Origin: Rhizobium etli CFN 42
GTDB taxonomy: Bacteria; Pseudomonadota; Alphaproteobacteria; Rhizobiales; Rhizobiaceae
Length of the DNA: 64,000 bases
NCBI RefSeq assembly: GCF_000092045.1
Contig: NC_007761.1
Location: 3,227,001-3,291,000, forward strand
Direction: 5' to 3'
Every line of letters starts with the position of its first letter. Positions within the stretch are counted from its first letter, which is position 1. Of this stretch, positions 59,121 through 64,000 are shown one piece after another. Made by a program: the position numbers and the translations under genes. The notes under the pieces are model-generated. The model did no database searches. It worked only from the letters and a program-made list of their open reading frames with translations, and was not told the origin of the DNA.

Positions 59121-59318
59121 GGTCTACTCCAATTCTGATCGCTTGATGGTTTGCAACCATTGGCGGAACAATGATTTGCATTCATTGCAAAAGTCTAGTC
59201 GCAAATGTAAGCCCTATACGAGAACCGATATGAAGTATCGGCTCCCCACAAGGCCGACGTTCTGCACCGCCGGGGCTTGGATAGATTTTCTGATGCCACG
59301 AAACTCCATTGAGGTAGC

Positions 59319-59930
59319 ATGTCTGTTTATCAATTGAAGTCCCGTTTTCAGAATATCCTTCGTCCTCTGGTGCGCGCGCTCGCAACGCGAGGCGTCACCG
59401 CCAATCAGGTGACTTCAGTTGCCGCCGCCGTTTCTGTGGCACTTGGCCTTCTTCTCAGTGTCGTCCCACGTCCGCAGTTGTTCCTGTTCGTGCCTGTCTG
59501 GTTTCTCTTGCGCATGGGCCTCAATGCCATAGACGGCATGCTCGCGCGCGAACATGGGCAAAAGAGCATTTTGGGCGCCTATCTCAATGAGATCGGTGAT
59601 GTCGTGTCGGATATCGCCCTGTATCTGCCGTTTGCACTGATCGATCCGAACGGCCTGATGCCGGCAATGGCTGTCATACTGCTGTCTGTGCTGACGGAAT
59701 TTGCCGGAATATTGGGTCAAACCGTCGGCGCTAGCCGGCGCTACGACGGGCCAATGGGCAAAAGCGATCGCGCGGTGCTTTTCGGGGCGCTCGGCGTCTT
59801 TGTCGCCGTTGGCGGTACCTTTGCAGCATGGTCCTTGTGGCTTTGGGCAGTGATGGCTCTCCTTCTCATGTGGACTGTCATCAACCGTGTCAGCGCCGGC
59901 ATTGGCGAGGCCCGCACGGCGGCTCGATAG
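59319..59930 (+). CDS. CDP-alcohol phosphatidyltransferase, YnbA-like, altered motif
   Basis: A 203-residue protein with about six helices. The CDP-alcohol phosphotransferase motif D-x2-DG-x2-AR-x8-G-x3-D-x3-D is present as N-x2-DG-x2-AR-x8-G-x3-N-x3-D: Asn69 and Asn90 replace the first and third Asp, while Asp72, Asp94, Gly73, Arg77 and Gly86 are kept. The start SVYQLKSRFQNILRP and the TEFAGILGQTVGASRRYDGP region match E. coli YnbA as I remember it, which seems to share the Asn changes. It should join a CDP-diacylglycerol and an alcohol in the membrane, unless the change has altered the reaction. Confidence 0.85.
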   Translation: MSVYQLKSRFQNILRPLVRALATRGVTANQVTSVAAAVSVALGLLLSVVPRPQLFLFVPVWFLLRMGLNAIDGMLAREHGQKSILGAYLNEIGDVVSDIALYLPFALIDPNGLMPAMAVILLSVLTEFAGILGQTVGASRRYDGPMGKSDRAVLFGALGVFVAVGGTFAAWSLWLWAVMALLLMWTVINRVSAGIGEARTAAR

Positions 59931-60060
59931 GAAGCGGAGCCGATCTGCTGCCTTTCTCCCCGGGAGCGTCATCCCGGGCAAGCACATCTTCTGATCCCTC
60001 CCTCCTGCTAACGATACCATAAACAAAGGTTGTATTTTTTTATATTCCGTCTTGAAATCT

Positions 60061-61200
60061 ATGGCACCGACGAGCAAGACACCGCATCCATCGCTATTGC
60101 GCTATCGGCTAGCGCCTGACGATCGGGCGCGACAGGCGCTGGACGACACCATCGCCGCCTATCGGAGGATGCTCGACATCCTGACCAAGCTCATCGACGA
60201 CAAAGCCGGCGCCAATCTCGTCGTCCTGCATGACCTTGCTTATGAGACCGTCCGCGAGCACACAGGCCTGCCGGCGCGGCTGGTGACGCTTGGCCTTCGC
60301 GATTTCGCTGCCAATCGGGGCGTCATCCCCGATCCGCTGCAGCTGCCGCTCGATGAGAAGCTCTTCGCCATAAAAGGCCCCTCGGACCTGACCATAGCTA
60401 CGGTGCACGGGCGCGTTGCAGTGCCCTTCGATGTCGCCGGCTACTCCAGGGGATGGGAGAGTATCTTTCCCGCATTCCTTGCAGCCAACCAGGATCGCTA
60501 CGAGATTAACATCGGCGTCACGCCGAATTCGGCTCGGATGGAGGAAAACATGACGAATGAAGGCATTCTTTCACGCATGGGCCGCCTGATCGCGGGCATC
60601 GCCAATGCAGCGATCGACAAAGCGGAAGGCGTCAACAAGATCGCCGTCATCGAACAGGCGATCCGCGAAATCGACGCGGCTGCCGAGGAAGCTCGCACCG
60701 ACCTCGGCAAGGCGCGCGCCGAGGAATACCGCATTCAGAGCCGCAAGGACGAAATCATCGAAGACATGAACGCGCTCGATGAGAAGATCCGCCTGGCGGT
60801 CTCCTCCGGGCGCGACGATCTCGCCAAGGCCGGCGTTGCCCGTCAGATCGATCTGGAGTCCCAGATCGCCGCGCTTGACAAGGCGCTGGCCGATGCCAAA
60901 GAGCAGGTGGATGAGGGCCAGAAAGCCCTGCAGGCGGTGCTGGCCACGCGCCGGGAAGCCGACGCCCGCCTGGCCGATTTCAAGCGCAGCATCGCCAAGC
61001 ATCCCGAAGAGGCTCTGGCCGGCCACAGCAAACCGACGCCGGGCGCAGGTGCTGCCCGCGCCGCCGCGGCAGTCTCGCGGCTGACCGGCGTTCCATCGGC
61101 CGAAAACGTCCAAAGTTCCGAACTGGACGAACTCGACCGATTGCACCGCGAGCAGGCGATCGAGGCTCGTCTTGCGCGTTTCAAGGCGGATAACCGGTGA
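60061..61200 (+). CDS. PspA/IM30 protein with TnpB-like N-terminal domain
   Basis: A 379-residue fusion. Residues 164-379 are a PspA/IM30 coiled-coil protein (start GILSRMGRLIAGIANAAIDK, long Ala/Glu/Arg helices). Residues about 8-150 read like the N-terminal recognition and wedge part of a TnpB subgroup: LLRYRLAPDDRARQALDDTI, LHDLAYETVREHTGLPARLV, and LDEKLFAIKGPSDLTIATV followed by HGRVAVPF; no RuvC catalytic domain follows. The ATG at 60061 lacks a ribosome site, while an in-frame ATG at 60550 has a perfect GGAGGA, so a PspA-only product of 216 residues is likely too. It overlaps the YqiJ-like gene by 4 bases. Confidence 0.78.
   Translation: MAPTSKTPHPSLLRYRLAPDDRARQALDDTIAAYRRMLDILTKLIDDKAGANLVVLHDLAYETVREHTGLPARLVTLGLRDFAANRGVIPDPLQLPLDEKLFAIKGPSDLTIATVHGRVAVPFDVAGYSRGWESIFPAFLAANQDRYEINIGVTPNSARMEENMTNEGILSRMGRLIAGIANAAIDKAEGVNKIAVIEQAIREIDAAAEEARTDLGKARAEEYRIQSRKDEIIEDMNALDEKIRLAVSSGRDDLAKAGVARQIDLESQIAALDKALADAKEQVDEGQKALQAVLATRREADARLADFKRSIAKHPEEALAGHSKPTPGAGAARAAAAVSRLTGVPSAENVQSSELDELDRLHREQAIEARLARFKADNR
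60540..60552 (+). promoter_or_regulatory. Strong internal ribosome site and start for PspA-only product
   Basis: GGAGGA at 60540-60545 is 4 bases before an in-frame ATG at 60550, exactly where the PspA homology begins. It is one of the best ribosome sites in the window, whereas the upstream start of the fusion has none. Confidence 0.6.
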
Positions 61201-61853
61201 CGCCGATGGGACTTTTCCTCGCTCCTGAATGCCTTCCCTTTGCGATCGCCGCCGCCGTGCTTGCCGGCCTGACCGTGATCGAGATGCTGGCAACCGTCAT
61301 GGGTTTTTCAATAACCGAGCTTCTCGGGAAACCGGATCTCCACGGCCATGACGGCGTTGCGGGCTACCTGTCGTGGCTCAATGTCGGCGGCGTTCCCCTG
61401 CTCATCCTCCTGATGATGGCGCTTGGCTTCTTCGCCATTGCGGGCTTTGCCATGCAGGCGGTCGCCGGCGCTTTCTGGGCGCCGTTGCCGGCCGCCGTCG
61501 CCGCCATTCCCGCCTTGGTGCTCACCTTCCCGATGGTCCGGGCCTCGAGCCGGACGGTGGCAAGGATCGTCCCGCACGACGAGACCTATGCCGTCGATCT
61601 CGACACCCTCGTCGGCCGGACGGCGGAAGTGTCGCTTGGCCTGCTCGACCAGGGGCTTCCGGGGCGCGTCCGCGTCAAGGACCAGCACGGAAACTGGCAT
61701 GTTCTGAGAGCCAGGGCCGCCAAGGGCCAGGACCCGCTGAAGGTCGGCAGGCAGGTTCTCCTCGTCGATCGCAAGGCTGATGTGTTTATCGCCATTCCCG
61801 CTCTCGCCGACCCGGCCGGAGCGGACAATCAATCTTTCAGGGAGCAGCCATGA
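61197..61853 (+). CDS. YqiJ-like membrane protein with OB-fold domain
   Basis: A 218-residue inner-membrane protein. Three helices in the first 120 residues (LPFAIAAAVLAGLTVIEML, then VPLLILLMMALGFFAIAGFAM split by helix ends, then PAAVAAIPALVLTF) precede a soluble OB/NfeD-like domain (VGRTAEVSLGLLDQGLPGRVRV). YqiJ-family proteins pair with YqiK flotillins, as here. The GTG at 61197 overlaps the pspA stop; an ATG at 61206 is also possible. Its stop overlaps the flotillin start. Likely a membrane partner for flotillin assembly. Confidence 0.85.
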   Translation: MTPMGLFLAPECLPFAIAAAVLAGLTVIEMLATVMGFSITELLGKPDLHGHDGVAGYLSWLNVGGVPLLILLMMALGFFAIAGFAMQAVAGAFWAPLPAAVAAIPALVLTFPMVRASSRTVARIVPHDETYAVDLDTLVGRTAEVSLGLLDQGLPGRVRVKDQHGNWHVLRARAAKGQDPLKVGRQVLLVDRKADVFIAIPALADPAGADNQSFREQP

Positions 61854-64000
61854 TGTATGATATTATTCTACCGGCCGGTATCGGCATCGTTTTGATCTTC
61901 GGCATCGGCTTTGTCCTTGCCTCTCTCTACACGCGCTCCAGCCGCGACGAGGCTTATGTGCGCACCGGCCTCGGCGGCCAGAAGGTCGTGCTCGATGGCG
62001 GCTCCGTCGTTCTGCCGATCTTCCACTCGATCGCCAGGGTCAACCTGAAGACGCTGCGGCTGGAAGTCCGCCGCGGCGAAGGCGATGCACTGATCACCAA
62101 AGACCGCATGCGCGTCGATATCGGCGCCGAATTCTATGTGCGCGTGAAGCCCGACGCCTCCTCGATCGCGCTTGCCGCCCAGACGCTCGGCAGCCGCACC
62201 AATGACGCCGAGGCGCTGCGCATCCTGATCGAAGCCAAATTCGTCGACGGCCTTCGCTCGGTGGCCGCGACCATGAACCTCGACGCGCTGCAGGAACAGC
62301 GCATGGATTTCGTCAAGGCAGTGCAGGAAGCCGTCGGCGCCGACCTCCAATCGAATGGTCTCGAGCTCGAATCCGTGTCGCTCACGCGCCTCGACCAGAC
62401 CGACATCAAACATTTCAACGCCAATAACTTCTTCGACGCGCAGGGTCTTGCGGCGCTGACCCGCATCACCGAGGGTCGCAAGAAGGAGCGCAACGAGATC
62501 GTCCGCGATACCGAAGTCGCCATCGCCCAGAAGGATCTGGAGGCCCGCCAGCAATCACTGGCCATCGAGCGGACGAAGCGCGAAGCAGAGCTTAATCAGG
62601 AACGCGACATCGCCAACAAATCCGCCGCGACCCGCGCCGAAACCGCCCAGCAGGAGCAGGCGGCAAAACGTGCCAAGGAGGAAGCCCGCATCGCCTCCGA
62701 ACAGGCGATCGCCGAGCGCGAGGCAGCCGCCAAGCAGGCCCGCGAAAGTGCAAACATCGATGCCGCCCGCGCCGTCCAGCAGCGCGACACCGAGGCGAAA
62801 CGCGACCTTCAGATCGTGGCCCAGGAAAGCGCCATCGCCGTCGCCAACAAGAGCCGCGAAGAATCCGAGGCAAAGGCGACTGCCGAAATGGCCCGCGCCC
62901 GGGCGATCGCGGCAGAGGAAAAGGTCGGCACCGCCAAGGCGATCGAGATTGCCGAGCGCGAAAAGCAGATCGCCGTGATCGATGCGCGTAAAACCGCCGA
63001 AACCGAAGCCACCGCCGTCACCGTCGGCGCGGAGGCCGAGAAACAGGCCGCGATCGACCAGGCGGAAGCCATCAAGACGCTTGCGACCGCCGAAGCGGAT
63101 GCGGCGATCATCAAGGCCAAGGGCATCCTCGAAACCGGCCGGGCCCAGGCTGAAAGCGAGGCGCTTCTTAACGAGGCCCGCAACAAGCTCAGCCAGACCA
63201 TCATCGAGTTCGAAATCACCCGCGAGCGGATACGCATCATTCCCGAGGCGCTCGCCGAGGCGGTCAAGCCGATCGAGAAGATCTCCGATATCCGCATCTT
63301 CGACACCGGCGGCATGCTCGGCCGCGGAAACGGCGTGAACGGTGAAAACGGCATCGGACTCGGCGATGGGCTGGCCGGCCAATTGCTCTCCTATCAGGCC
63401 AACAAGCCGATCCTCGACAAATTGTTGAAGGAGGCCGGCTTTGACGGCGACAACGCAATCTCATCCCTCCTTGGAAATCTTGACGGCGCAAAACCGGCAA
63501 TTTCAGCCGCGGCTCCGGCAAAGCAGGCAATCCAGCCTGCCACTCCGGTAAAGCCGGTGGCACCGGCCGCGGCTCCTGCAAAGACGATCACCCCTAGGCA
63601 CCTGAAAAGGATTGACCGCAGCGGAGGCAGGTCCGGCCTACCTCACCCAGCCCGTCGCCAGCGCACTCGCCCAGTCGGCACGGCCCCTTTCGGCGGCCAG
63701 TGCCGACATCGCCACGTGGTCGTAGGCGACATTCCTAAACTGCCATGTCCATCCCGCCGCCGTCTTTTCCAGAATGGCATAGCCGGCCAGCGGATGGCCG
63801 GCTTCGACCTTATGATAATAGGGCAGCACATCGTCATAGGCAGGGCAGCCGACACTGCCGGGATTGACGATCAGCCGGCCGTCCGAGAGTCGGACGGCAC
63901 GGGGAATGTGACTATGGCCGCAGAGGATCAGCGGCAGCTCGATGCCTTCGGCGAGCGCCTCGATCGCGTCGATAGGCTTCGGAAAGACATGCCCCTGCGG
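61850..64000 (+). CDS. Flotillin / SPFH protein, YqiK-like; no stop before window end
   Basis: Starts in the YqiJ-like stop (ATGA). An N-terminal membrane helix (residues about 6-27) is followed by a PHB/SPFH domain (about 30-200), then a very long Ala/Glu/Arg coiled coil (about 205-500) and a Pro/Ala-rich tail. Homology ends at about 63600 (AKTITPR). The frame then stays open to the window edge, running antisense through the metallophosphoesterase gene without a stop. TAG at 63595 and TGA at 63603 and 63613 exist in the other frames, so a single-base indel could restore a normal end. Forms membrane microdomain scaffolds. Confidence 0.82.
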   Translation, partial: MMYDIILPAGIGIVLIFGIGFVLASLYTRSSRDEAYVRTGLGGQKVVLDGGSVVLPIFHSIARVNLKTLRLEVRRGEGDALITKDRMRVDIGAEFYVRVKPDASSIALAAQTLGSRTNDAEALRILIEAKFVDGLRSVAATMNLDALQEQRMDFVKAVQEAVGADLQSNGLELESVSLTRLDQTDIKHFNANNFFDAQGLAALTRITEGRKKERNEIVRDTEVAIAQKDLEARQQSLAIERTKREAELNQERDIANKSAATRAETAQQEQAAKRAKEEARIASEQAIAEREAAAKQARESANIDAARAVQQRDTEAKRDLQIVAQESAIAVANKSREESEAKATAEMARARAIAAEEKVGTAKAIEIAEREKQIAVIDARKTAETEATAVTVGAEAEKQAAIDQAEAIKTLATAEADAAIIKAKGILETGRAQAESEALLNEARNKLSQTIIEFEITRERIRIIPEALAEAVKPIEKISDIRIFDTGGMLGRGNGVNGENGIGLGDGLAGQLLSYQANKPILDKLLKEAGFDGDNAISSLLGNLDGAKPAISAAAPAKQAIQPATPVKPVAPAAAPAKTITPRHLKRIDRSGGRSGLPHPARRQRTRPVGTAPFGGQCRHRHVVVGDIPKLPCPSRRRLFQNGIAGQRMAGFDLMIIGQHIVIGRAADTAGIDDQPAVRESDGTGNVTMAAEDQRQLDAFGERLDRVDRLRKDMPLR
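63638..64000 (-). CDS. Metallophosphoesterase (N-terminus cut by window edge)
   Basis: Open from the right edge to a TAG at 63638-63640, giving the last 120 codons. The calcineurin-like motifs ILCGHSHIPRAV (GHSH metal ligands) and IVNPGSVG are clear, as in YfcE/MJ0936-type phosphodiesterases. The C-terminal part is a family-variable extension. It is convergent with the flotillin gene, and the open flotillin frame overlaps it entirely in the window. The metal-binding N-terminal Asp and His lie outside. Confidence 0.85.
   Translation of the reverse strand, partial: PQGHVFPKPIDAIEALAEGIELPLILCGHSHIPRAVRLSDGRLIVNPGSVGCPAYDDVLPYYHKVEAGHPLAGYAILEKTAAGWTWQFRNVAYDHVAMSALAAERGRADWASALATGWVR

Follow-up and report, generated by a model that had tools for sequence, protein, structure and literature searches.

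A TnpB-derived lobe fused to PspA in Rhizobiales and a candidate operator in the promoter of its operon

Why should a phage shock protein begin with what looks like the front end of a transposon nuclease? This question is raised by a gene in a stretch of 64,000 nucleotides from Rhizobium etli CFN 42 (contig NC_007761.1), referred to here as the window. On its forward strand, a frame at 60061-61200 is open over 379 codons, and Pfam family PF04012 (PspA_IM30) matches residues 168-293 of the encoded protein (Table 1). The full-length model places helices at residues 169-187, 192-248 and 252-313 and has pLDDT values below 50 at residues 156-171, between the front lobe and PspA. With PF04012, the first helix and the coiled-coil hairpin all present, the PspA part is an ordinary one as modeled. 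The first 163 residues matched no Pfam family above the cut-off, the only listed match being Abhydrolase_3 (E 0.017). Among the matches listed, the named protein records are mostly called “PspA/IM30 family protein” or “phage shock protein A”; since these names mention PspA only, the extra domain is easily overlooked. A 343-residue form (P0018) begins at Met37 of the fusion protein, so that this gene call cuts the lobe.

The pspA fusion is followed by a yqiJ-like gene, which begins with a GTG at 61197 that overlaps the stop of pspA, and by a flotillin gene. The flotillin frame of the window runs open for 717 codons to the end of the window, and the gene is annotated with 560-581 codons in six plasmid-borne relatives; a lost stop or a late frameshift in the window is possible.

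Table 1. Features of the pspA fusion operon in the window.
Feature	Position	Strand	Basis
Promoter remains, TTGAAA (60052-60057) kept	60051..60060	+	Comparison with L026-L105
TnpB-derived REC+WED lobe, residues 1-163, folded core about 11-153, without RuvC	60061..60549	+	
Three helices matching TnpB REC domain, residues 21-84	60121..60312	+	DSSP of model; conserved columns
Strands matching TnpB WED barrel, residues 94-153	60340..60519	+	DSSP of model; VIA alignment to TnpB
Internal Shine-Dalgarno GGAGGA	60540..60545	+	Sequence
PspA/IM30 protein, residues 164-379, own start codon	60550..61200	+	PF04012 E 1.9e-14
YqiJ-like membrane protein, OB fold	61197..61853	+	PF21001 E 6.6e-17, PF07290 E 5.5e-13
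Flotillin (YqiK-like), open up to the end of the window	61850..64000	+	PF15975 E 2.9e-21, PF01145 E 3.1e-16

The initial annotation had likened the front part to the N-terminal region of TnpB and had noted that no RuvC domain follows. Both observations are borne out. Profile comparisons in both directions, run with reversed and shuffled controls, together with the fold, identify the first 163 residues as homologous to the REC+WED region of TnpB. Model TIGR01765 (transposase N-terminal domain) matches four of 23 lobe members, with a best E-value of 2.6e-4. An hhalign comparison of the lobe with the TnpB protein P0122 gave a probability of 97.6 and an E-value of 3.4e-12 over 142 columns; the match ends at residue 157 of P0122, and the GIDLG motif at its residue 171 is what we take to be the start of RuvC. 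When 398 genomes were scanned with the family alignment, a full TnpB was picked up at E 3.9e-9. A TIGR01765 scan of 100 genomes of the phylum returned no match; this model is too narrow, as it missed G355, the genome holding the TnpB later found.

On the structural side, the nine best Foldseek matches of the lobe are all TnpB, Cas12, Fanzor or TranC proteins, the best of them at only E 1.1e-3 and TM 0.46 and none at E 0.001 or below. The same class accounts for 50 of 50 among the matches listed by VIA. Pfam gave no TnpB match for the lobe in the window protein or in 23 lobes, a profile search of PDB sequences with the lobe returned one unrelated match (E 1.9) and no TnpB, the PHROGs search gave nothing useful for the lobe, and phage records contained three weak matches only (E 3 or more). 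An alpha/beta-hydrolase identity was considered and rejected: the Pfam match at E 0.017 and two genome matches (L022, E 2.4e-4; L023, E 7.5e-4) are taken as chance, the likeness being a short YRLAPD..DDTLAAY stretch in real hydrolases. A dehydrogenase-like protein (L182) matched the lobe profile at E 9.5e-5, again by chance, which shows that single matches near 1e-4 carry little weight here.

Within the lobe, the first WED strand falls at residues 11-17 (DSSP of the model), and the REC-like helices contain the strongly conserved segment LPARLVTLGLRD (residues 70-81). From the WED strands the frame goes straight into PspA. Neither a RuvC domain with its catalytic acids nor the TNB zinc finger was found in the fusion protein by Pfam, frame or model, and PF07282 and PF01385 are unmatched in the whole fusion protein and in 23 lobes. 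In the portion of the ISDra2 TnpB study used here, the TAM-reading residues sit in REC and WED (PMC10097598). The REC helices of the lobe are the region that matches the TAM-reading REC residues of ISDra2 TnpB. Residues Y52, F77 and N124 of ISDra2 presumably correspond to lobe residues 52, 73 and 105, a by-eye mapping that serves as a lead only. The lobe has a median net charge of –3 (n = 114); for 125 TnpBs, taken over their first 165 residues, it is +6. Because at least 95% of 114 rows have a basic residue at each of R65, R80, K100, K105 and R118, we read this slight acidity as fitting a loss of guide RNA/heteroduplex binding better than a complete loss of DNA binding.

A search with residues 1-165 returned 485 proteins at E ≤ 1e-3, and PF04012 is present in all 120 among the matches listed. 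Of 61 genomes searched, 19, its own included, contain the complete fusion free of stops, at 64-100% identity. Eighty loci from named records, the best 80 of 195 confirmed stretches, were fetched; the frame continues from the lobe into PspA in all 80 (368-385 codons), and the genera include Rhizobium, Ensifer, Neorhizobium, Martelella, Enterovirga and Bradyrhizobium. The initial annotation had left conservation across Rhizobiales to be checked: 25 of 397 genomes of the order have a match, own genome included, and the frame is open in 24 of them. The remaining copy (L140, in G769) has decayed; there, the end of the lobe runs into the last PspA residues within a frame of 75 codons. Neither outcome named in the initial annotation as refuting, a lack of TnpB similarity or stops and frameshifts within the first 163 codons of close relatives, came up. 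Outside the order the fusion is rare, with three of 289 genomes of the class when searched with a first alignment and four of 385 with a broader one, namely the same three and one more. Among 27 Rhizobium genes, including that of the window, pairwise dN/dS has a median of 0.163 in the lobe and 0.093 in PspA. Two origins had been offered for the fusion, a TnpB fragment captured as a nucleic-acid-binding arm or a transposon remnant running in frame into pspA. The remnant does not fit this wide, open and purifying-selected conservation and was rejected; a captured arm fits, with a putative binding of nucleic acid.

The counts below refer to 113 carrier loci, made up of the 80 named loci, 27 from other genomes and six on plasmids; some species occur twice, and the window is excluded. 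Repeats and products of other queries (L001-L025, L106, L141-L164, L171-L174, L176-L180) were left out, as were the decayed copy L140, the TnpB L181, the chance match L182, and L110-L116 (TnpB and stand-alone proteins). A subset below 90% identity comprises 52 of the 113 loci.

Does the gene make one protein or two? The internal start is as first described, with GGAGGA, the spacer AAAC and ATG at 60550-60552, and no Shine-Dalgarno sequence is visible ahead of the fusion start ATG at 60061. In the 27 Rhizobium genes, codons 160-165 (ATG GAG GAA AAC ATG ACG) form the sole run of at least five invariant codons among 379, and this run is the internal Shine-Dalgarno sequence plus the PspA start. 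An in-frame Met lies shortly ahead of the PspA core in all 113 loci. Ribosome-site scores cover 101 loci, 12 of the 113 being left unparsed by the Shine-Dalgarno pattern; a match of at least 5 nt occurs in 84 of these 101 related, not independent, loci versus 38.8% after synonymous recoding. This constraint on the internal start turns the two products, suggested earlier as a possibility, into a likely outcome.

For the long form, the promoter region is informative. TTGAAA is the top-scoring –35-like hexamer in 98 of 113 loci, and the –10 boxes are variable, with TATGTT accounting for 42 of 113. From the –10-like box it is 6-8 nt to the next ATG in 93 of 113 loci. Such spacing predicts a leaderless mRNA, and the long form is probably translated from one whose 5′ end lies at or beside the start codon, which would explain its missing ribosome site.

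Between the –35-like and –10-like boxes of the relatives' promoters lies a palindrome, AAAGNAC-N7-GTNCTTT, whose arms overlap this pair of boxes, spaced 16-18 nt. Against a 12-point template, 94 of the 113 loci score 12, 12 score 11, six score 10 and one scores 9; shuffled upstream regions reached 11 or more in none of 2260 cases and 10 in 11. The right arm ends 10-13 nt ahead of the first in-frame ATG in 110 of 113. Measured as information content across the 52 loci below 90% identity, conservation reaches up to 2 bits within the arms but only about 0.1 bit per base just upstream. Loci found via PspA or YqiJ that lack the lobe (n = 8, two of them overlapping in one genome) gave a maximum score of 10 over 2-3.7 kb. 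A scan of 37 genomes, 14 carriers and 23 non-carriers, found the exact palindrome once per genome, at its own operon, in 11 of the carriers; G002 and G009 have it with one mismatch at the operon, and the third remaining carrier is the window's genome. By chance, it occurs in two non-carriers (G017, G043; one site each). Off the operon, the 14 carriers hold five sites with one mismatch versus nine for a control pattern.

Where the arms change, they tend to do so together. L121 has AAAGGAC in both; L107 and L108 (AAAGGAT/AAAGGAC) as well as L109 (AAAGTAT/AAAGTAC) are symmetric in all but the innermost base; and in L139 (AATGAC) and L138 (AAAACAC) both arms have changed. The two arms differ in L175, and a sizeable share of the loci have one imperfect arm, including L078, L128, L131 and L137; in the R. 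tropici group, for instance, AAAGCAC is paired with AAAGTAC. Such one-arm imperfections may set the binding strength of the candidate operator. An R at residue 73 goes with C at the variable base: it is found in the 107 loci that have this C in one or both arms (both in 91; a T stands in one arm of 16), and the six loci lacking this C have Q. On the tree, with due caution over long branches, the R73/Q73 and operator changes need a single event; the correspondence is suggestive only, and on this ground we rejected the idea that residue 73 and the operator coevolved repeatedly. By these comparisons, a conserved symmetric site overlaps the operon's own promoter, that of the window's genome excepted.

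In that genome, 26 bp between TTGAAA and ATG have been lost, and with them the palindrome and the –10 box, which are intact in the 80 loci compared. The best template score upstream of the window's gene is 8 of 12, the same as in shuffled sequence, and no sigma-70-like promoter was found at 59900-60100. With its operator deleted, the operon should there escape the proposed control; it has probably been rewired. CFN 42 is the wrong strain for testing the proposed switch.

Six plasmid-borne copies keep the three genes and the palindrome. Their surroundings differ among Agrobacterium, Shinella, Bosea and R. daejeonense, two Shinella plasmid copies have common neighbors, and the R. leguminosarum plasmid copy has a metallophosphoesterase gene behind the operon, in which the window seems alike. 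Operon frames and presumed antisense shadows aside, no neighboring gene family, regulators included, recurs in more than four of 22 loci; this analysis used the longest open frames in GC-rich DNA, and the fusion itself came up in just 17 of the 22, so shadow frames may have displaced real genes.

How might such a protein work? We lean slightly towards a switch in which the long protein represses its own operon through the palindrome, the short PspA comes from the internal start, and stress releases the repression. One gene would give two proteins, a long REC+WED-PspA and a short, ordinary PspA. Two or more long subunits, joined by the PspA coiled coil, would bind the palindrome and hold the operon down. 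Upon membrane damage, the PspA part would move to the membrane, the lobe would leave the operator, and pspA-yqiJ-flotillin would be induced, while the short PspA would carry out repair without contacting DNA. Binding of the palindrome by the lobe is the simplest account, the lobe being the only plausible DNA-binding part of the operon. Points against this switch are the slight acidity of the lobe, the variability of the –10 boxes, the imperfect arm in part of the loci and the lack of the palindrome in the window's own genome. For the broader idea that a TAM-reading, Cas12-type lobe serves as a guide-free, sequence-specific transcription factor on an ESCRT-III-like sensor, with the internal start adding an operator-blind PspA, we see about even chances.

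The palindrome could instead be the operator of a separate, unlinked transcription factor, with the lobe binding a protein partner or loosely tethering DNA to the membrane. Palindromes in promoters are typically bound by dimeric helix-turn-helix regulators, and both the slight acidity of the lobe and the single event behind the R73/Q73 correspondence would sit well with such a factor. We nevertheless consider it unlikely: the exact site occurs once per genome, at the operon, in 11 of 14 carriers, operon and site move together on plasmids with mostly different surroundings, and the part of TnpB that was retained is its DNA-reading one. Nor was a regulator gene seen to recur near the 22 loci, with the reservation on displaced genes given above; a trans-acting regulator with a single target is possible. 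Somewhat less probable still, in our view, is that the lobe binds RNA, namely a hairpin of the transcribed palindrome by the start codon, so that the long protein controls its own translation. The low net charge of the lobe and the lack of sequence conservation upstream argue against this, as does the 6-8 nt between –10 box and ATG in 93 of 113 loci, with which the arms would stay untranscribed. If transcription started further upstream, the symmetric arm changes would fit a hairpin too; arms stay paired in several lineages where they have changed, and the right arm keeps its 10-13 nt distance to the in-frame ATG in 110 of 113. As far as the part of the TnpB study used here goes, WED contacts the omegaRNA, much of which is held by RuvC (PMC10097598), the domain absent from the fusion.

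A guide-RNA-dependent regulator with a guide from elsewhere would have a precedent in TldRs, described in the section consulted as TnpB-derived, RNA-guided repressors (PMC13418256). We think this very improbable for the fusion, which lacks both RuvC and TNB, the domains that could hold a guide; moreover, Rfam gave no match at gathering score across 59300-64000, and the palindrome is a fixed site beside the gene itself. Finally, the TnpB fragment might have been joined to pspA by chance and be neutral. TnpB genes are common transposon cargo and one copy (L140) has decayed, yet this reading is already contradicted by frames that stay open in all 80 named loci and in 24 of 25 matching genomes of the order, by the lobe's dN/dS of 0.163, and by R65, R80, K100, K105 and R118, kept basic in at least 95% of 114 rows; we give it next to no credence.

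We found no description of a fusion of PspA with a TnpB lobe in titles and abstract openings of the open-licence literature, and one may exist elsewhere. In the parts of Ravi et al. (2024, PMC11237479) used here, PspA/YqiJ/band-7-flotillin operons are described, which likewise combine PspA with YqiJ-like and flotillin genes, and the PspA fusions named are those with NlpC/P60, PspAA and tandem repeats; neither “transposa” nor “rhizob” appears in the main text. Lobes that stop before RuvC also occur in two Paenibacillaceae proteins, WP_157373766 and WP_162645586, which score 49.9 and 27.0 bits against the rhizobial profile; unlike the fusion, they are stand-alone proteins of 176-180 amino acids, plasmid-borne and without PspA. 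Lobe-only proteins lie among plasmid genes in Thermobacillus composti (L110:2004-2534) and Paenibacillus rhizovicinus (L116:1992-2534), and a search with the L110 protein returned nine proteins at E ≤ 1e-3, those with a named organism from Thermobacillus or Paenibacillus.

With TnpB, the RNA-guided nuclease of IS605/IS607 elements, the fusion shares the order of REC and WED helices and strands and a match ending shortly before RuvC; it differs in lacking RuvC and the TNB zinc finger, in being joined to PspA, and in showing no omegaRNA by Rfam at gathering score within 59300-64000. TldRs, with an inactivated nuclease domain and a guide RNA in use according to the section consulted (PMC13418256), are comparable in being TnpB-derived and tied to a host gene, and the fusion too is a proposed transcription repressor. 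The fusion, however, has lost RuvC altogether, and its likely target is a palindrome at the promoter of its own gene. If the proposed switch is true, a TAM/PAM-reading part can become a stand-alone DNA-binding domain, turning a transposon nuclease into an ordinary transcription factor. To our knowledge, the known re-uses of TnpB (Cas12, TldR) all keep the RuvC domain and the guide RNA. In E. coli, PspA holds PspF, whose DNA-binding part belongs to a separate protein. Control of psp genes by PspA itself would run parallel to this, whereas in the fusion the DNA-binding part would share PspA's chain; the Psp response would then have gained a new wiring, with sensor and regulator in a single chain.
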